A DNA stretch of 64,000 bases from Archaeoglobus sp. JdFR-37. Its GTDB lineage: Archaea > Halobacteriota > Archaeoglobi > Archaeoglobales > Archaeoglobaceae. This document shows positions 10,329 through 46,366 of this stretch, piece after piece (the first letter of the stretch is position 1; each line of letters begins with the position of its first letter). A model generated the notes under the pieces. That model saw nothing but the letters and a program-made list of their open reading frames with translations, made no database searches and had not been told where the DNA came from. A program made the position numbers and the translations under genes. The DNA lies in assembly GCA_002010215.1 (NCBI GenBank), contig MTMY01000033.1, positions 1-64,000 of the forward strand, given 5' to 3'.

Positions 10329-10391
10329 ATCTTCGACAGGAATGTAAAAAAGTTAATATATTGGACGTTGAAAGTAAATTTGGTGGCTGAG

Positions 10392-10676
10392 ATGATCAGT
10401 GAAATCTCAACGCTTTTCGGTATGCGAGTATATACTGATGAGGGAAGATATGTCGGAAAGATTCAGGATGTAGTGATAGACGAGGAAAAGAAGATGATTA
10501 AGGGCATCGCTGTTGTTGAGTACAATAGAGCTCTGATAGAATCGCGGGCACAAGGAGTGATACTGCCATACGCTCTTGTCAAGGCTATAGGGGATATAGT
10601 TCTGGTTAAAGATGTTTTCAAGAGAAGGAGGAAGAAACAGGAAGCGGAAGAAGCTGATGAAGTTGAAGCATCTTGA
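10392..10676 (+). CDS. PRC-barrel domain protein
   Basis: 94 residues from ATG 10392 (the frame is open further to 10368, but family members start close to the MISEISTLFGMRVYT segment). The PRC-barrel spans about 5-75 with VYTDEGRYVGKIQDVVID and VILPYALVKAIGDIVLV; the tail is very charged (KRRRKKQEAEEADEVEAS). Archaeal stand-alone PRC-barrel proteins are small and of uncertain function; bacterial relatives take part in RNA processing (RimM) and photosynthesis. A TATA-like element (aagttaatatatt, about 10350-10362) lies upstream. The next gene overlaps its last 20 bases. Confidence 0.85.
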   Translation: MISEISTLFGMRVYTDEGRYVGKIQDVVIDEEKKMIKGIAVVEYNRALIESRAQGVILPYALVKAIGDIVLVKDVFKRRRKKQEAEEADEVEAS

Positions 10677-11382
10677 GCTATATTCTCTTCTCTTAGCTCC
10701 TCTGCCATTTATGGTTCGAGTTGATGGGCGCAATTTTTCAAAAATTCTTTCTGATTTTGAGAAGCCGTATGACGAGAAATTCGCAAGAATCATGGTGAAC
10801 TCAGCTGTAGCAATTATGAAGGAGTTCAACGCAACACTCTGTTACATTTTCAGCGATGAGGCAAATTTCTATTTTCAGCATGAAATTTTCTCCCGAAGAG
10901 TGGAGAAAATCAATTCTGTGATTGCATCAATGTTCTCGTCAAGCTTCTCTCTTGCAATAGGTAAGCCAGTGAGCTTCGATTCTAGGATAATACACGTTCC
11001 AGAAAATCTGCTGGTTGAGTATCTTTCAGGCAGGCAAAAGGAATGCTGGAGGAACCACCTAAACGCCTATGCATTCTATAAAATGCTGGAGAAAGTTAAG
11101 AATAGGAATGAGGCTCAAAGGAGGCTCACGGGTATGAAATCTGCACTCCTTCACGATTTTCTTTTTGAGAGAGGTATAAATCCTGCCAGAACTCCTGCTT
11201 GGCAACGAAGAGGAATACTGATTCACTGGGTTCAGGAGGAAAGGAGAAAAATTCATCAGGGAAAAGAAGTGGTTTTTACCAGAAGGGTGTTGAAGCAGAA
11301 CTGGGAACCACCACTTTTCTGGACAGAAGAAGGAAAAAATTATCTTTCGACGGTTACTGGGGTAGTTGGAAATGGGTTATAA
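10657..11382 (+). CDS. Thg1-like 3'-5' RNA polymerase (tRNA-His guanylyltransferase family)
   Basis: 241 residues from ATG 10657. The palm-like catalytic core is visible: PFMVRVDGRNFSKI (metal-binding Asp) and YIFSDEANFYF (second carboxylate pair), followed by IHWVQEERRK and a basic C-terminus typical of the family. These enzymes add nucleotides to RNA 5' ends in reverse direction; archaeal members add template-dependent G-1 to tRNA-His or repair truncated tRNAs. Only the catalytic residues and fold support this, so tRNA-His specificity is not proven. The start overlaps the PRC-barrel gene by 20 bases. HisRS and a protein-only RNase P occur 33 kb away. Confidence 0.85.
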   Translation: MKLKHLELYSLLLAPLPFMVRVDGRNFSKILSDFEKPYDEKFARIMVNSAVAIMKEFNATLCYIFSDEANFYFQHEIFSRRVEKINSVIASMFSSSFSLAIGKPVSFDSRIIHVPENLLVEYLSGRQKECWRNHLNAYAFYKMLEKVKNRNEAQRRLTGMKSALLHDFLFERGINPARTPAWQRRGILIHWVQEERRKIHQGKEVVFTRRVLKQNWEPPLFWTEEGKNYLSTVTGVVGNGL

Positions 11383-33091: not shown

Positions 33092-33445
33092 ATGGAATTT
33101 CTCAGGAAAAATGCTCTGAAGTTTCTTAAAAAAGCTGAAGAAAGTTTGGAGGAGGGGGATTATAACTTCACCATGTTCTTCGTTGAGCAGTTCTTTCAGC
33201 TTGCCCTGAAGTACTATCTCTACAACAAATATGGCGATTTTCCAAAAACCCACAGTTTGAAGGTGCTTTTCGAGTTAACAAAAGACGGCAGGCTTTTGAA
33301 ATATTATAAAGAGAATTTAGACCTGTTAAGAGAGGTGGAGTTGTCTTACGTTGCATCAAGATATTTTGATGTTGACTACAGTGAAAATGTGGCAAAGAAA
33401 AGTTTAGAGTTGGCTAAAAGATTTGTTGAGGTTTTGGCTTTATGA
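33092..33445 (+). CDS. HEPN-domain toxin
   Basis: 117 residues, all helical. It has the HEPN pattern: AEESLEEGDYNFTMFFVEQFFQLALKYYLY and GDFPKTHSLKVLFELTKD, the latter holding the conserved His region. HEPN proteins are often RNases or substrates of AMPylation by a partner MNT protein. The gene ends in ATGA overlap with the MNT gene. A TATA-like agctatatatcc lies about 25 bases upstream. Confidence 0.88.
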   Translation: MEFLRKNALKFLKKAEESLEEGDYNFTMFFVEQFFQLALKYYLYNKYGDFPKTHSLKVLFELTKDGRLLKYYKENLDLLREVELSYVASRYFDVDYSENVAKKSLELAKRFVEVLAL

Positions 33446-33789
33446 CGGAGTTTCTGATGGAATACTTCAGATTGCTGGAAAAGAACAGAAAATTTTTTGA
33501 TAATGCGATGATTACAGCTAGACAAGTAGAGAGGAGAGCTAAAAAGATCTTTGACGACTGTCAGGTATTTATAGTTGGGAGTTTTGCTGAAGGAAGACAC
33601 AAATTGTCTTCTGATCTGGATATACTAATCATCTCTCAGAAAATCCCTGAAAAGTTCAGCTTTGAGTGGTATTGCAATATAGTGAAACGCTTGAGTGACG
33701 ATAACAGAGTGAATATTCACTTGGTAAATAAAAGGAAGTTTAAAGAGGTTAAGAGGCTTTATTGGCCCAGAATTGAAGTCGTACCTTAA
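33442..33789 (+). CDS. MNT-type nucleotidyltransferase (antitoxin of the HEPN pair)
   Basis: 115 residues. The minimal nucleotidyltransferase signature GSFAEGRHKLSSDLDILI (about 50-67) with the GS-x-D-x-D core is intact. In characterised HEPN-MNT pairs the MNT protein modifies and neutralises the HEPN RNase. It follows the toxin and is translationally coupled, the common order for this type. Confidence 0.88.
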   Translation: MTEFLMEYFRLLEKNRKFFDNAMITARQVERRAKKIFDDCQVFIVGSFAEGRHKLSSDLDILIISQKIPEKFSFEWYCNIVKRLSDDNRVNIHLVNKRKFKEVKRLYWPRIEVVP

Positions 33790-33794
33790 AAACT

Positions 33795-34163
33795 TCAATC
33801 AATCAGAGTTAACTCAAGTCCGAAGTCTTCAAGGATCTTGAAATCTGAATCAAGGGTTATAAGGCCGTGTCTATTCGTTATGCAAATAGTGCCTATGAAG
33901 AGGTCTCTCAAGCTCATTTCTCTACCAGATTTTTTTAGTTCCTTGTAAATATTTGCAGATATGTCCGCAGATTTTTCGTCGAAGGGTAAGCAGTCCAGAG
34001 ATCCAATCAAATTGAGTTCAACTAGTTTTGGAGTTCCCACCATTATTTCAAATCTCGTTATTGAAGTAATAAGGAAGTAGCTGTCAATAGAAAGAACCTT
34101 GTCAAGTAATTCTTTGTTTCCTCGTGCTACCTCGATAATCACGTTCGTATCAAGGACTGCCAT
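33795..34163 (-). CDS. vapC: VapC-type PIN-domain toxin
   Basis: 122 residues. PIN acidic residues are visible: MAVLDTNVIIE (first Asp), TRFEIMVG (Glu), MSLRDLFIGTI (Asp) and TLDSDFKIL (last Asp). Expected to be a metal-dependent RNase. It overlaps vapB by 25 bases and converges with the MNT gene five bases away. Confidence 0.9.
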   Translation of the reverse strand: MAVLDTNVIIEVARGNKELLDKVLSIDSYFLITSITRFEIMVGTPKLVELNLIGSLDCLPFDEKSADISANIYKELKKSGREMSLRDLFIGTICITNRHGLITLDSDFKILEDFGLELTLID

Positions 34164-40195: not shown

Positions 40196-40750
40196 ATGAT
40201 CTTTGAAGTGGATGAGATAAAACGTCGCCGCAAAAAACTTGGTATTACCCAGAAGAGGTTGGCGGAACTCGTTGGAGTGAGTCAGCCATTAATAGCGAGG
40301 ATAGAGAGTGGAGACATCGACCCAAAGCTATCTCTCGTCAAGAAAATTTTTGAAGTGCTTGAGGAGCTTGAAGGAAAGCATGTTACTGCCCGTTCAATAA
40401 TGAATTCTCCAGTCATTTCAGTCCCTCCTGACGCAAATCTCAGAGAAGCAATAGAGATCATGAGACGAGATAACATTTCTCAGATACCTGTTATGGATTC
40501 AGGCAGGGTTCTAGGAAGCATAACTGAGAGCTCGGTCGTCAGGATTATCCTTGCCAGAGGACTTGAGGGGGTTGAAAGCTTGAAAGTAAGGGAAGTTATG
40601 GAAGACCCTTTGCCGACTGTTGAGGCAGAGGAGAAACTAGAAACTATATCGAGAATCCTTCTTTCAAATCCGGCTGTTCTGGTGATGGAAAACGGTAAAA
40701 TAGTGGGAATTATTACCAAACACGACGTCATGAAGGTGATGGGTAAATGA
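40196..40750 (+). CDS. XRE-type HTH regulator with two CBS domains
   Basis: 184 residues. The HTH is at about 5-55 (IKRRRKKLGITQKRLAELVGVSQPLIARIESG), followed by a CBS pair (ARSIMNSPVISVPPDANLREA and VREVMEDPLPTVEAEEKL). CBS domains bind adenylates such as AMP, ATP or SAM. It is divergent from tupA with a shared promoter box, so it could regulate tup and its own long operon. It overlaps the next gene by four bases. Confidence 0.88.
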   Translation: MIFEVDEIKRRRKKLGITQKRLAELVGVSQPLIARIESGDIDPKLSLVKKIFEVLEELEGKHVTARSIMNSPVISVPPDANLREAIEIMRRDNISQIPVMDSGRVLGSITESSVVRIILARGLEGVESLKVREVMEDPLPTVEAEEKLETISRILLSNPAVLVMENGKIVGIITKHDVMKVMGK

Positions 40751-41367
40751 GCATGAAGCTGATTTTCTGGCATGGAATGGCAGATGAGGACAAAATAGAA
40801 TACCTCAAGAAATTTAGTGTGGCCATAATAGGAAGCAGAATGCTCATGGAGCTTCTCTGGAGGGGTGGGGTTGGCTGTATAAGGTATATTGGCGATTACA
40901 TAACCCCAAATGATGCCAGAATAGATTCAACAATTCACCCTCTTGAGGCCAATGACTATGATGTTGTTCACCCTATGAGTACAGATTCGTGTGTTATCAG
41001 CTACCCTTATCCTTGGGATTACAGAGAGCTCAAAAGGCAGTTGAAGGGAATAGATGTGGTTGTAGCTCACAAACATATGGAGGTGGCTGCCAGAATCGCT
41101 GAAGAGCTTGGCGTCCCCTTCATTCCGGACATCATCACGACCTTTCTCCCTGATGGCGTATCTTTCTTTGATGTAGAATATCCCCGGATCAAACTTGACC
41201 CCATCAGTTATGCTCTCACATGCTCAATTCAGGCCGGAGAGATCATGAGAATATTCACCGGATACCATCTCCCTGCCATTGCTCCAACAGCATATGTGGT
41301 GGACACACGAATAGAGAATTATTTAAAGAGGATTCAACTGAGGATTAGGGATGAAGGTGAAGATTAG
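40747..41367 (+). CDS. Degenerate ThiF/MoeB-like (E1-like) protein
   Basis: 206 residues. The pattern resembles the Rossmann core of the ThiF family (VAIIGSRMLMELLWRGGVGCIRYIGDYITPNDARI, ending with AGEIMRIFTGYHLPAIAPTAYVVD), but the GxGxxG nucleotide loop is IIGSRM, and the catalytic Cys and zinc CX2C pairs are absent. It may be a non-adenylating relative. It overlaps both neighbours and directly precedes the beta-RFAP synthase gene, so a role in methanopterin synthesis is possible but unproven. Confidence 0.55.
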   Translation: MSMKLIFWHGMADEDKIEYLKKFSVAIIGSRMLMELLWRGGVGCIRYIGDYITPNDARIDSTIHPLEANDYDVVHPMSTDSCVISYPYPWDYRELKRQLKGIDVVVAHKHMEVAARIAEELGVPFIPDIITTFLPDGVSFFDVEYPRIKLDPISYALTCSIQAGEIMRIFTGYHLPAIAPTAYVVDTRIENYLKRIQLRIRDEGED

Positions 41368-42307
41368 AACACCTTCCAGAATTCACATCAGTCTTATAGA
41401 CCTCAATGGCGCTCTCGGCAGAGTGGACGGAGGTGTGGGTTTAGCACTTGAAGAACCATTCATTGAAATAATTGCTGAGGAGGCAGACGAATCTGAAGGT
41501 GTAATTGTCGAAGGATCGAAAAACGAGCGGTATAGAGATGTAGCGAAGAAAGTTTCTTCTATTTTCAATTCTGGAGGTTTAAAACTCAGAGTTCTTCACG
41601 AATATGAACCACATATAGGACTTGGAAGTGGGACGCAAATCTCTCTTGCTGTGGCAAAGGCCTATGCGGAGATTTACAGGATTGATAAAAGTGTTGAGGA
41701 ACTAGCATACATAGTGGGTAGAGGGGGGACGTCCGGGATTGGCGTGGCAGCCTTTAGGGTAGGTGGTTTTGTTGTTGATGGTGGACACTCCAGAAACGAG
41801 AAAAAGGATTTTCTACCATCTTCTGCCAGCAAAGCGACACCGCCTCCCCTGATATCTCGACTCGAGTTTCCTGACTGGAAGATTTTTCTGGCTGTCCCCA
41901 GCAAGAAGGGGTTTTATGGTCACAAGGAGGTCAATCTCTTTCAAGAAAACTGCCCTATTCCCTTGGAAGAGGTCAGAGAACTCGCTCATCTAATTCTAAT
42001 GAAACTGCTCCCCTCAGTTGTAGAGGAAGATGTCCAGACTTTTGGCGATGCTCTGTGGAGGATTCAGCACCTAGGGTTCAAAAAGGTCGAAGTGGATCAA
42101 TATGGCGAGAAAATCTGGAATGTGATGGGGGAGGCAAGAGAAGTTTTTCCTGCTGTGGGTATGAGTTCAACAGGCCCCACCGTTTACTGCATCTCTGATT
42201 CGGGAAGAAAGAAAGATCTTGAATCTATATTTAAAGAGGCCGAAATGAACTTTGTGGTTTTCGAAACTGTCGCAAGGAACAGGGGGGCCGACATTGAGCG
42301 AATATAG
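41351..42307 (+). CDS. Beta-ribofuranosylaminobenzene 5'-phosphate synthase
   Basis: 318 residues, GHMP-kinase fold. Signatures: RTPSRIHISLIDLNGALGRVDGGVGLALEEP, HIGLGSGTQISLAVAKAYAEIY, GRGGTSGIGVAAFRVGGFVVDGGH and GMSSTGPTVYCISD. It condenses 4-hydroxybenzoate (or p-aminobenzoate) with PRPP, losing CO2, as the first committed step to tetrahydromethanopterin. It overlaps the ThiF-like gene by 17 bases and nop5 by 14. Confidence 0.93.
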   Translation: MKVKIRTPSRIHISLIDLNGALGRVDGGVGLALEEPFIEIIAEEADESEGVIVEGSKNERYRDVAKKVSSIFNSGGLKLRVLHEYEPHIGLGSGTQISLAVAKAYAEIYRIDKSVEELAYIVGRGGTSGIGVAAFRVGGFVVDGGHSRNEKKDFLPSSASKATPPPLISRLEFPDWKIFLAVPSKKGFYGHKEVNLFQENCPIPLEEVRELAHLILMKLLPSVVEEDVQTFGDALWRIQHLGFKKVEVDQYGEKIWNVMGEAREVFPAVGMSSTGPTVYCISDSGRKKDLESIFKEAEMNFVVFETVARNRGADIERI

Positions 42308-43076
42308 ACTCTGGTTTGGCATAGTGAAAAATGGCAAAATAACTCCAAGCGATGACTTCAAAAAATCTTTCCAGAACTGTGAAAACGCTGAACCACTGCC
42401 GTTTTCACCTTCAGAAGTTGGAATCAAGCATTTTGGGTCTCTCGATGCATATTTCTCAGCTCTGAGGAAAGTGGCAATAGATGTGGTAAAGAAGATAATA
42501 GAGCATGAGCTGAAAAGAGAGGACAGATATGCGGTTCTCTTACTCAAGTCTTTGGATGAACTAAATGAGACTATAAACCTGCTGGAGGAGAAGCTCAGAG
42601 ATCTGGAAGAAGTTAAAGTCAGTGAGGTAACGGAAAGCTTTAGAGACAGAATAGCTGAGCTTAAGAGGCTCAGAAGAGATGTGGAAAAGGAGATCGAAGC
42701 AATAGTTAGCAAAATAGCTCCGAACCTCACTGAGATTGTTGGAGCAGTAATTGCTGCTAGGCTGTTAGAAAAGGCAGGAAGTCTAAAAAGGCTTGCGGAA
42801 ATGCCTGCCAGCGCTATTCAGCTACTTGGTGCGGAGAAAAGCCTTTATAAAGCTCTCAGCAGGATGAAGAAAGGAAAACCAGCCAAGTTTCCAAAACATG
42901 GCGTGATTTTTCAACATCCTTTCGTAAGAACTCTCCCAAAAGCTAAACGGGGCAAAATGGCCCGTTTTATGGCAGCAAAGCTAGCAATTGCTGCTAGGCT
43001 GGATTATTTCAGCGGTGAACTGAATGAAGAACTCGCAGAAGCCGTTAGAAAGAGATATGAGCAGCTAAGGAGATAG
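42294..43076 (+). CDS. nop5: Nop5 (Nop56/58) C/D box RNP protein
   Basis: 260 residues from TTG 42294; aggggg lies eight bases upstream. The Nop domain carries NLTEIVGAVIAARLLEKAGSL and GKPAKFPKHGVIFQHPFVRTL, binding the L7Ae-C/D RNA complex; a coiled coil (about 75-140) and a short N-terminal domain bind fibrillarin. The length matches short archaeal Nop5 proteins. With fibrillarin it directs 2'-O-methylation of rRNA and tRNA. Confidence 0.93.
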   Translation: MSEYRLWFGIVKNGKITPSDDFKKSFQNCENAEPLPFSPSEVGIKHFGSLDAYFSALRKVAIDVVKKIIEHELKREDRYAVLLLKSLDELNETINLLEEKLRDLEEVKVSEVTESFRDRIAELKRLRRDVEKEIEAIVSKIAPNLTEIVGAVIAARLLEKAGSLKRLAEMPASAIQLLGAEKSLYKALSRMKKGKPAKFPKHGVIFQHPFVRTLPKAKRGKMARFMAAKLAIAARLDYFSGELNEELAEAVRKRYEQLRR

Positions 43077-43090
43077 GTTGGGGAGATAGG

Positions 43091-43747
43091 ATGGATAGGA
43101 TGAAGGTCAAAGAAGTGCTTCACAATGTAGTTCTCCTAGATCGAAACGGCAGGAAAATTCTTGCAACTAAAAGCAGATACGCTCCTCATTACGGGGAGAA
43201 GAAGTATGGAGAGTTCAGAGAGTGGATGGCTTCAAGAAGCAAGCTGGCGGCGTTGATCCTCAAGGAGTACGTGCCTGAAATAAAAGAAGACTGGAAAATA
43301 CTGTACCTTGGTGCTGCAAGCGGTACTACAGTCAGTCATTTTGCTGATATTGTTGAGAAAGGAGTCATTTTTGCTGTAGAGTATTCAGCAAAACCTTTCT
43401 CAAAATTCTTGGAGTTGGCCATGGAGAGAAAGAACATAATACCCATTCTCGCTAACGCTCTGCAACCTTGGAAATACAGCGGAATCGTGGACAAAGTAGA
43501 TATGATATACCAAGATGTTGCTCATCCCGAGCAAGTGGAGATTTTTGAAAGAAATGCTGACTTCTTCTTGAAAAAAAGAGGAGAGGGACTCATAATGGTT
43601 AAAGCAAGGAGCATTGACTCCACCGCCGAACCCAAAGAGGTGTTTACTCGGGTTAAGCAGAGACTTAAGAGTAAGTTTAGAGTTCTTGCTGTTATTGACC
43701 TTGAACCTTACCACAAGGACCACGTTGCAATTCACATTCAGAGGTAA
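43091..43747 (+). CDS. flpA: Fibrillarin, rRNA/tRNA 2'-O-methyltransferase
   Basis: 218 residues (ATG 43100 is an alternative). SAM-binding motif [20 protein letters not shown], then VFAVEYS-type strand ([11 protein letters not shown]), [13 protein letters not shown] and VKARSIDST. Encoded 14 bases after nop5, the standard pairing. Confidence 0.95.
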
Positions 43748-43779
43748 TTTTTTATCCTCAGCTTCCGTGGTGTTTTCAG

Positions 43780-44454
43780 ATGAGGCAGAGATTCGTTCTC
43801 GACACAACAGCCATAACTGATACTGGGATGAGGGTTCAGGAGGGTTTTGAAACCCTTTGCGATTCAGCCATGGCTATTCTCGATCTTATCGCTCAAGCCC
43901 GTCTCAAGCTGGATATCAGCTGTTATATTCCATACCCTACCGTTTACGGGGAGCTTGTGAGCTTTCTTCGTCGTTATGACTGCAATGACGAGGTATTTGT
44001 TAAACTCGATACATGGTTGGTGAAGAAAACTCCCAACAGGTATGAGGTCGCAATTCCAGCAGCAATTTTCTACGAATATGTTCTCACCATGAGGCAAAAA
44101 ATTAACAGAGGTCGAAGGGTTGCTGAAGAATTCATCTGGGAGAGTTCGACAGTAGCTTCAAAAATTGAAGATAAAGATGAGCTTCAAAAGGAAATTGGAC
44201 AACTAGTGAGTAAATTTAGAGATAAATATCGTGCCACATTACGACAGGGAATTCTTGACAGCACTCCTGACTTAGATGTACTACTCCTCGCGAAGGAGCT
44301 TGATGCAGGCGTTGTCAGTAGTGATGCAGGCATTAGGAAATGGAGTGAGAGAATGGGTTTGAGGTTTGTAGAAGCTAGCAAATTTCCAAGGATGCTGAAA
44401 GAGTATCTTGTTCTTTCGGAAGAAGGTTTAAAGGAGGGGAAGAGTATTGATTGA
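43780..44454 (+). CDS. HARP, RNA-free ribonuclease P (UPF0278, former RNA ligase partner protein)
   Basis: 224 residues. PIN-like start [12 protein letters not shown] with the first Asp, a helical spike segment in the middle ([22 protein letters not shown]), and the metal-binding end [32 protein letters not shown]. This family (Aquifex Aq_880 type) removes 5' leaders from pre-tRNA without RNA. Archaea also carry RNA-based RNase P, so HARP is usually secondary. It overlaps hisS by eight bases and is therefore translationally coupled to it. Confidence 0.88.
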
Positions 44455-45676
44455 GCGACCAAGAGGGACGAGAGATTTTCTGCCGGATGAGATGGAGAAG
44501 AGAAGAGCAATTGAAGTGAGATTTAGGGAGATTGCCGAAAGTTATGGCTATAGGGAGATTGCCACACCGACCTTTGAGCATCTGGAACTTTTCACTATAA
44601 AGTCTGGAGAGAGTATAGTAGAGGAGATCTACGCTTTCAAGGATAAAAGTGGGAGAGATCTTGCACTGCGGCCTGAGCTTACAGCCCCTGCCATGCGTTT
44701 GTTCATCAACGAATGTAGCGTTATGCCCAGGCCCCTCCGCTTCTACTATTTCGGCAATTGTTTCAGATACGAAAGGCCTCAGAAAGGAAGGTATCGAGAG
44801 TTCTGGCAGTTCGGTGTGGAGCTTATCGGCTCAGAGAGGGTTGAGGCTGATGCAGAAGTAATAATTCTTGCATATCGTATGCTTAAAAGCCTGAATATTA
44901 ACTTTGACTTACAAATAGGGCATGTTGGAATTTTGAGGAGTATTTTGGAGAATGTTGACGAAGAAAAATCTTCCAAAATCATGAGGCTCATTGACAAGAA
45001 AGACTATGATGGGCTGGCAAGTTACATGGATGAAGCCAAAATTCCAGAAGATGTTCAGGAGAACGTTTTTCAGGTTTCAGCACTTCATGGTGGCAGAGAA
45101 GTTCTGAACGAGGCTGAAGGGTTTACGGGTCGGGAAAATCTCCAATATCTTAATGGATTGTGCGATATTTTGGACTCCACCGAGATAGAATATACAATAA
45201 ACCTTGGAATTGCCAGAGGGCTGGACTATTACACAGGCATGGTTTTCGAAATTTACGCTGAGGGTTTGGGGGCGCAGAAGCAGATTTGCGGTGGTGGAAG
45301 ATACAGACTGGCACATCTATTTGGTGGAGAGGATGTCCCATCAACTGGCTTCGCCATCGGATTTGACAGAGTTTCAGAAATTTGCAAAATCAGTGCTGAA
45401 CGTAGAAAACTCGTTGTCATAGTGAATTTTCCCGACACCTTAAAAGAATCTCTCGAAATTGCTGAAAAGCTGAGATCTGCAGGTTTAAGGGTTGTGTCAG
45501 ATGTCATGGGCAGGAATGTTAGGAGACAGCTCTCCCACGCCAGCGATATAGGTGCCGATTATGCTATAATTGTTGGTAAAAAAGAGATTAATGAGGGTGC
45601 GGTAGGGGTAAAGGACCTTCATACCGGGATTCAGAAATCTGTAGCGATAAATGAGCTAACAGAATATTTGACTTAA
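44447..45676 (+). CDS. hisS: Histidyl-tRNA synthetase
   Basis: 409 residues. Class II motifs: [11 protein letters not shown] at the N-terminus, [20 protein letters not shown] (motif 2), [15 protein letters not shown] and the histidine loop CGGGRY, motif 3 near [11 protein letters not shown], then a C-terminal anticodon domain. TTG 44447 is the only plausible start. It ends the seven-gene run from 40196; an AT-rich tail (about 45678-45705) may terminate transcription. Confidence 0.95.
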
Positions 45677-45705: not shown

Positions 45706-45760
45706 CTTGTCCAAAAGGTTTAAATAGATGTAAGTTTATGACTTTTTGTCGGTGATTATA

Positions 45761-46366
45761 ATGATTACAATAAGAATAAGTAAGCCTGGAATACTATTTT
45801 TGATGATGGCGGTGGCCATTTCAATATTTAGTTATGAACCAGTTCTGACACTAAGTGGAGAGATTACAGTACCTGATTTTTCTACATCCTCAACACCATC
45901 ATCTTTTCCAAATCAAGGGGGGAAAAACCTCTATGCTGATGAGGAGAACATTAGAATTCTGGAACGGTATGTCATGCAGTTCCTCAATATAGAGAGAGCA
46001 AACAATGGCCTTCCACCACTTCTGTGGAATGATCAGCTAGCTGAAGCTGCCAAAATGCACAGTACAGACATGGCGGAACGGAACTACTTGAGTCACTACT
46101 CACCAGAGGGAGAGGGTGTTGAAAATAGACTGAATAAGGTAGGGTATCGCTTTGCTGTAGCTGGAGAAAACATATTTGAGGCAACATATCTTGAAAACAA
46201 AGAACCAGTAGAACTTGCAAAGATTATAGTCACTGGATGGATGGAGAGCAAAGGACATCGATTTAACATCCTAAATAAAGCCTACGAGGAATGTGGTGTA
46301 GGTATCGTTTACGATAAGGACACGCATCGGATAATCGTTACTGCTGTTTTTGCTACCCCCCTCTGA
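45761..46366 (+). CDS. Secreted CAP-domain (SCP/PR-1-like) protein
   Basis: 201 residues from ATG 45761 (ggtgat upstream). A hydrophobic signal or anchor segment spans about 10-33; a Ser/Thr/Pro-rich linker follows; then the CAP domain from about residue 65 with INLERANNGLPPL-like FLNIERANNGLPPLLWNDQL, AAKMHSTDMAERNYLSHYSPEG, AGENIF and GHRFNILNKAYEECGVGIVY. Bacterial and archaeal CAP proteins resemble YkwD; the function is unknown. TATA (ggtttaaatag, about 45717-45727) precedes it. Confidence 0.9.
   Translation: MITIRISKPGILFLMMAVAISIFSYEPVLTLSGEITVPDFSTSSTPSSFPNQGGKNLYADEENIRILERYVMQFLNIERANNGLPPLLWNDQLAEAAKMHSTDMAERNYLSHYSPEGEGVENRLNKVGYRFAVAGENIFEATYLENKEPVELAKIIVTGWMESKGHRFNILNKAYEECGVGIVYDKDTHRIIVTAVFATPL

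Follow-up and report, generated by a model that had tools for sequence, protein, structure and literature searches.

In the 64,000-nucleotide window analysed here (positions 1 to 64,000 of contig MTMY01000033.1 of Archaeoglobus sp. JdFR-37, contig 8 of a draft genome of 1.97 Mb in 52 contigs), the gene for HARP, a protein-only RNase P homolog, is followed on the same strand by hisS, the gene for histidyl-tRNA synthetase (HisRS), and the two close a run of seven + strand genes packed at 40196-45676. The seven-gene run would be a lineage-level expression unit of an ordinary kind, and the HARP-hisS pair at its core, retained again and again, is probably old. We lean towards reading that core as an old co-expression unit, in which HARP, as a nuclease of tRNA 5' ends, would be made in step with HisRS. 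According to a 2024 review, archaea with HARP also possess the ribonucleoprotein (RNP) form of RNase P, and the role of HARP in them is presumed to be specialised, with its function still to be identified (PMC10941002). For the job of HARP in archaea already having an RNA-based RNase P, the hisS neighbour gives a testable lead. It is a second lead, independent of the RNA ligase Rnl3, which is the one genomic lead that we found in print (PMC12153264). No description of the HARP-hisS pair was found in the literature on HARP, protein-only RNase P and HisRS, a search that had supplements and most subscription journals outside its reach.

Distribution and descent of the HARP-hisS pair

For the conservation survey, 80 HARP-centred loci of Halobacteriota were used, Archaeoglobaceae (f1) contributing 47, and the window genes were sought in each by tblastn. 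Outside f1-f3, one locus per genus was used, f20 and f22 (also with HARP) contributed none, genomes with a sub-cut-off HARP match (59/220) were left out, and Thermococci, Methanococci, Methanobacteria and bacteria lay outside the sample. HARP was found in 80/80 loci, with hisS as the next gene in the same orientation in 23/80. These comprised 16 of the 47 Archaeoglobaceae loci (Ferroglobus, g4, 2/2; Geoglobus, g5, 7/7; g6, labelled Archaeoglobus, 6/7; g13, 1/1), both loci of f2 (same order as f1; one is JdFR-42), both of f3 (same class as f1; one is Mnemosynella), both of f12 (SCG-AAA382B04 and Methanohalarchaeum), and the single locus of f18 (Methanocellales). All seven genes stood together in 10/47 Archaeoglobaceae loci (Ferroglobus 2/2, Geoglobus 6/7, g6 2/7), with three further loci truncated by contig ends (L103, L107, L108) kept outside this count, and no group other than Archaeoglobaceae showed the seven-gene form. 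Opposite-strand hisS genes were found 1.3 kb on in the single f19 locus, 6.5 and 5.6 kb from HARP in L121 (f21) and L130 (f36), respectively, and 3.4-5.7 kb from HARP in five Methanoperedens-type loci.

Scanning the named genomes (the 80 best among 358 relatives, of which 41, L233-L273, were examined, the other 39, L194-L232, being Archaeoglobales or kin) added pairs in Hydrothermarchaeum profundi (L244), SZUA-158 (L267) and NC_groundwater_1681 (L236, genome G393). The first two belong to one phylum, Hydrothermarchaeota (23 genomes, 15 with HARP), in which the pair is present in 6 of the 15 HARP-bearing genomes (L244, L267, L287, L290, L291, L292); G393 is the only genome of its orphan phylum in the collection. 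The original prediction had proposed conservation of the adjacency beyond the genus as a test, and the pair was found in five Archaeoglobaceae genera including that of the window, in one more family of their order and one more order of their class, in two other Halobacteriota families, in Hydrothermarchaeota and in the orphan phylum. Its recurrence in several archaeal groups, each a family or of higher rank, makes it unlikely that the adjacency is due to chance; by rough arithmetic, made without matched control pairs, one particular gene among ~2,000 in a genome has a chance of ~1/4,000 of being the next gene downstream in the same orientation. The window hisS is the sole hisS over cut-off in its genome, and a single over-cut-off hisS was found in 52/55 Archaeoglobaceae genomes and in 9/9 genomes checked outside this family, so the neighbour of HARP is the cell's ordinary HisRS.

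An open census of HARP neighbours covered 106 loci (all 15 HARP-bearing Hydrothermarchaeota genomes, with 10 Methanoperedens-type loci added), in 98 of which a HARP frame was called; proteins were clustered, and clusters within 3 genes of HARP were counted. HisRS came out as the top neighbour, at 30/98 loci in 8 lineages (one of these, G393, having entered because of its pair, and another, f19, having the gene on the opposite strand), with 28/30 at position +1 on the same strand. The runner-up was a small protein without Pfam family, carrying 4 lineage labels with some nesting among them (Methanoperedens, f36).

The genes around the pair vary by group, and its order and orientation are constant. 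T2SS-type (type II secretion system) genes lie 3' of hisS in f3, f12 and f18; in Hydrothermarchaeum and G393 hisI comes next and is accompanied by a PIN-ATPase gene; a sugar nucleotidyltransferase gene lies 5' of HARP in f2, and a HisA/HisF-type gene was seen near HARP in Methanoperedens loci. Within the pair, a 4-base stop/start overlap was found in 7/23 cases (f2, f3 and f18 included), and the others are spaced by -71 (start uncertain) to +63 bases, with one at +316.

Trees were built from 51 HisRS and 99 HARP proteins, with midpoint roots for drawing and with several of the exceptional rows flagged as long branches. Rows with and without the pair clustered together in both trees for Hydrothermarchaeota (the divergent HARP of L293 standing apart), and likewise for Archaeoglobaceae; with paired and pairless genomes co-clustering in this way, horizontal spread of one HARP-hisS cassette is disfavoured as the whole account. 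The order and orientation common to all pairs favour one old pair, broken many times. HARP-hisS would then be an old block, probably already paired in the common ancestor of Hydrothermarchaeota and Halobacteriota, and the distribution and the trees point to mostly vertical inheritance with many break-ups.

Two side observations concern individual HARP loci. In 14 f1 loci from three Archaeoglobaceae genera, HARP is followed by a same-strand cluster, of which the tested member (L076 1776-2726) is a methenyltetrahydromethanopterin (methenyl-H4MPT) cyclohydrolase. L100 (G253:C1), the second HARP of a g6 metagenome-assembled genome, encodes a protein identical to a g10 HARP (L075), probably through mixed bins.

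The seven-gene run and its HARP

The run was delimited by open reading frames and a direct count on the sequence. The recount bore out the original prediction in its seven genes and in all of its overlap and gap figures. From 5' to 3', genes 1 to 4 overlap in turn by 4, 17 and 14 bases, genes 5 and 6 follow after gaps of 14 and 32 bases, and gene 7 overlaps gene 6 by 8 bases. The features are as follows:

40196-40750, + strand: HTH and CBS-pair protein, predicted regulator, gene 1 of the run (PF01381, HTH_3; PF00571)
40747-41367, + strand: conserved 206-amino-acid protein without family; 4-base overlap with gene 1
41351-42307, + strand: beta-ribofuranosylaminobenzene 5'-phosphate (beta-RFAP) synthase, methanopterin synthesis (TIGR00144, 393 bits; NF040726, 371.9 bits); 17-base overlap
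42294-43076, + strand, TTG start: Nop5/56, C/D box RNP (PF01798, 152 bits); 14-base overlap
43091-43747, + strand: fibrillarin, C/D box 2'-O-methyltransferase (NF003276, 267 bits; PF01269, 225 bits)
43748-43779, + strand: 32-base gap containing TTTTTTATCC, candidate weak terminator or TATA-like box (by eye)
43780-44454, + strand: HARP, protein-only RNase P homolog, PIN_5, 224 amino acids (TIGR03875, 290.5 bits; PF08745, 303 bits)
44433-44439, + strand: Shine-Dalgarno-like GGAGGGG for hisS, within the end of the HARP frame, 7 bases before the TTG of HisRS (by eye)
44447-45676, + strand, TTG start: hisS, histidyl-tRNA synthetase (TIGR00442, 409 bits, cut-off 286.75); 8-base overlap with HARP

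Judged by its spacing, the run would form one directional expression unit, probably assembled from three blocks (HTH-CBS, the 206-amino-acid protein and beta-RFAP synthase; Nop5-fibrillarin; HARP-hisS). A TATA-like TTAAATA lies ~27 bases 5' of gene 1 (by eye), and a separate HARP-hisS transcript is possible in the window, since TTTTTTATCC in the 32-base gap is a candidate for either a promoter element or a weak terminator. In nine Ferroglobus/Geoglobus loci HARP overlaps fibrillarin by 4 bases, so that fibrillarin-HARP-hisS looks like one coupled unit in these genera. Fibrillarin and HARP stand 95 and 172 bases apart in two g6 loci, with a TATA-like stretch before HARP; TATA-like boxes before HARP were also noted, again by eye, in many pairless loci.

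The window HARP is full length and over the curated cut-offs of its family (TIGR03875 RNA_lig_partner, 290.5 vs 95.3 bits; PF08745, 303 vs 27 bits; family members Aq_880, PbHARP and TcHARP), and it matched PDB 7e8j with 112.9 bits. Residue correspondence with PbHARP was read off the PDB alignment by eye. D160, D164 and D182 correspond to the PbHARP catalytic residues D151, D155 and D173 and are invariant in 99/99 aligned HARPs, and Arg is retained at the positions of PbHARP R108, R116, R138, R142 and R146 (across the 99 proteins, R138 and R146 invariant; R142, Arg in 93 and Lys in 6; R108, Arg in 96; R116, Arg or Lys in 66). In its full-length profile, catalytic Asp residues and most Arg residues the window HARP is like the rest of the family; it is unlike PbHARP at R123, where it has Trp (W120, codon 44137-44139), keeping three of the four tRNA-elbow arginines R116, R123, R138 and R142. 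Of the 99 HARPs, 75 have Trp at this position, 16 have Leu, 7 have Arg and 1 has Lys. PbHARP R123 contacts the tRNA elbow, and its Ala mutant cleaves pre-tRNA-His much less (PMC9051087). The Arg-to-Trp change at such a contact is a caution that bacterial HARP biochemistry may not transfer to these archaea. It is no proof of lost activity; the HARPs of Methanosarcina mazei and Haloferax volcanii are reported to be active in vitro (PMC9051087). For HARP in viral contigs, no relative was confirmed.

The identities of two of the upstream proteins call for comment. Nop5 scored 182 bits against NF011121, under its cut-off of 452, and its longest frame begins at 42252. For the 206-amino-acid protein, no NCBIfam or Pfam match and no PDB match below E 0.5 was obtained, a fold search not being part of this analysis, and an AlphaFold model (mean predicted local distance difference test score, pLDDT, 39.1) was of no use. 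It is 70-80% identical across 11 Archaeoglobaceae relatives, in whose HARP loci its gene precedes that of beta-RFAP synthase and follows HTH-CBS in 10, the contig ending in the 11th; the protein is possibly methanopterin-related. Its N-terminal part is, by eye, reminiscent of E1/ThiF-like Rossmann proteins.

tRNA-His, Thg1 and RNase P

tRNA-His was not among the 34 tRNA matches of this draft genome. ARAGORN typed 28 of the first 30 tRNA loci and all 4 others, the two untyped loci resembling, by eye, intron-bearing genes with anticodons CAT and GTA, and the single tRNA-His pattern match in this genome (L189) was rejected as being, by eye, no tRNA. Within the HARP neighbourhood, tRNA-His was found in 0/80 loci. 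Typing in relatives covered 29 loci and yielded 26 genes (L297, L306 and L307 gave none; g3, g7, g9 and g11 were outside; the pattern matched in 13/25 genomes). The nucleotide G-1 is encoded in 20/20 typed Archaeoglobaceae tRNA-His genes, 13 from genera with the HARP-hisS pair and 7 from genera without it. At the same position elsewhere, G was found in f2 (1/1) and f3 (2/2, one genome), and the one gene typed from each of f36, f21 and Hydrothermarchaeota G414 has T, C and A, respectively; G414 (L304) has the pair (L287) without encoded G-1. Each of the two, the pair and an encoded G-1, is thus found both in company of the other and without it. As to the check on an encoded G-1 suggested in the original prediction, G-1 is encoded in all typed genes of the Archaeoglobaceae relatives; tracking with the pair was not seen, and for this draft the gene itself was not found. 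TATA-like boxes lie ~25-45 bases 5' of the tRNA-His genes (by eye), and because of their position a tRNA-His leader probably needs removal. In G149 (f3), one of the two tRNA-His genes (L308, L296) is very Archaeoglobaceae-like and lies on another contig, as contamination or a second gene.

The Thg1-like gene that had been noticed in the window was confirmed as Thg1 at 10612-11382, ~33 kb from HARP. The connection drawn from it did not hold: Thg1 is present in 8/55 Archaeoglobaceae genomes (this one, 2 of g2 and 5 of g9), and a link to the pair was rejected, as apart from this genome Thg1 occurs only in g2 and g9, whose loci lack the pair. The Thg1 frame and a same-strand PRC-barrel frame (10368-10676) have 65 bases in common.

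In line with the review cited above, an archaeal RNase P RNA was found on contig C9 of this genome (189 bits); HARP here is not the cell's only RNase P.

Readings of the pair, and other genes of the window

Under the co-expression reading that we favour, the stop-start overlap would be the most likely mechanism by which HARP output is coupled to HisRS output, and HARP, as an auxiliary RNase P-type nuclease, would leave the 5'-monophosphate at G-1 that HisRS reads. Several observations weigh against this reading. The pair is missing in 31/47 f1 loci (genera g2, g3 and g7-g12, and the second HARP locus of G253; four of the 31, L090, L096, L098 and L105, stop <0.9 kb past HARP and have their hisS on other contigs) and in all 25 loci from f5, f10, f15, f21, f27, f31, f33, f36 and f37, and is therefore dispensable. 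The descent of the pair is also not uniform in the trees: f3, of the same class as f1, groups with other Halobacteriota families in both, and f12 and f19 stand beside Hydrothermarchaeota in the HisRS tree and inside Halobacteriota in the HARP tree. Block transfer among f3, f12 and f18 is possible, because they share the T2SS-type genes after hisS. The parsimony minimum on the HARP tree is 8 state changes (30 pairs in 99 rows), which does not choose between gains and losses. The tie of the pair could instead be to histidine synthesis, given the hisI and HisA/HisF-type neighbours, and the promoter and Shine-Dalgarno assignments are putative, made by eye.

Three other explanations were weighed. 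Housekeeping clustering, by which the genes share a promoter and the pair persists because breaking the overlap harms hisS, with no joint function, is doubtful. In its favour, the other five genes of the run belong to unrelated pathways, a break within overlapping genes is costly, many loci lack the pair, and in f3, f12 and f18 it sits within a longer T2SS-type block, so that a whole region was kept there. Against it, the flanks change from group to group around a pair of constant order and orientation, and several non-overlapping pairs persist (gaps to 63 bases, and one of 316). A tie to the neighbours on the other side, in which HARP partners the C/D box RNP and trims C/D box RNAs at the 5' end ahead of their circularisation by Rnl3, with hisS as a passenger, we judge unlikely. 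Nop5-fibrillarin in this order is a common archaeal arrangement, which the window matches in genes and order and from which it differs by HARP-hisS downstream. Nop5-fibrillarin lies directly 5' of HARP in the window, g4, g5, g13 and some g6 loci, with the 4-base overlap in nine loci given above, and is continued by HARP-hisS in these, with no further case among the 80 loci. Seshadri and Gopalan (2025) tied HARP to Rnl3 and proposed a part in C/D box RNA maturation (PMC12153264); the gene order in the window is a mild point for their proposal. Rnl3 co-occurs with HARP in this genome and is over cut-off in 51/55 Archaeoglobaceae genomes. Unlike in the published association, Rnl3 is not adjacent here but on another contig than HARP, and the conserved neighbour is hisS, which goes unmentioned in the text of that paper as far as consulted. 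Rnl3 matched in 2/80 HARP loci (L137, f10; L138, f15) and in 0/41 further loci. Fibrillarin within 3 genes of HARP was confined to f1 in the census, with one other archaeal locus (L273) having fibrillarin 2.7 kb 3' of HARP, and both fibrillarin and Nop5 are gone in three g6 loci (L066, L074, L084) that keep HARP-hisS.

The original prediction had offered two readings, a HARP role in tRNA-His 5' maturation or an expression unit only; the second fits the data, and the first is possible but disfavoured. In its strong form, HARP would be a dedicated tRNA-His 5' maturation enzyme that cuts between -2 and -1 and leaves the G-1 monophosphate, hence the coupling to HisRS, and this we consider quite unlikely. 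It would accord with the presence of the pair in several groups from family to phylum rank, with the dependence of HisRS on a 5'-monophosphate at G-1 of tRNA-His (PMC10100707), and with the G-1 encoded throughout the typed Archaeoglobaceae genes, where the TATA-like boxes lead one to expect a leader. The published preference of PbHARP and TrHARP is, however, the opposite of the tRNA-His preference that had been predicted: these enzymes, which are bacterial, cut the native 8-base-pair (bp) pre-tRNA-His worse than a variant with a 7-bp acceptor, and a 9-bp variant was uncut (PMC9051087). G-1 is encoded in seven genes from genera without the pair and is lacking in the paired G414, tRNA-His is absent from the 80 HARP loci, the cell has RNase P RNA, and loss of HARP by knockout in H. 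volcanii and M. mazei left growth like that of the wild type under the conditions used (PMC10941002). The case for a HARP confined to tRNA-His is not made, and a dedicated role is not supported. A different functional pairing, in which a HARP measuring 7 bp would (mis-)trim G-1 unless HisRS holds the tRNA-His, thereby setting the amount of chargeable tRNA-His, with the elbow Trp tuning substrate choice, is a long shot.

Other genes of the window were noted in passing. Right after hisS, 45746-46366 encodes a CAP/SCP-family protein (PF00188) with an N-terminus that is hydrophobic by eye. A HEPN/nucleotidyltransferase pair (33092-33789 and 33795-34163) adjoins an opposite-strand PIN-domain gene in a toxin-antitoxin-like arrangement, and an IS110-family transposase is split over two frames (235-600 and 774-1253), seemingly broken.

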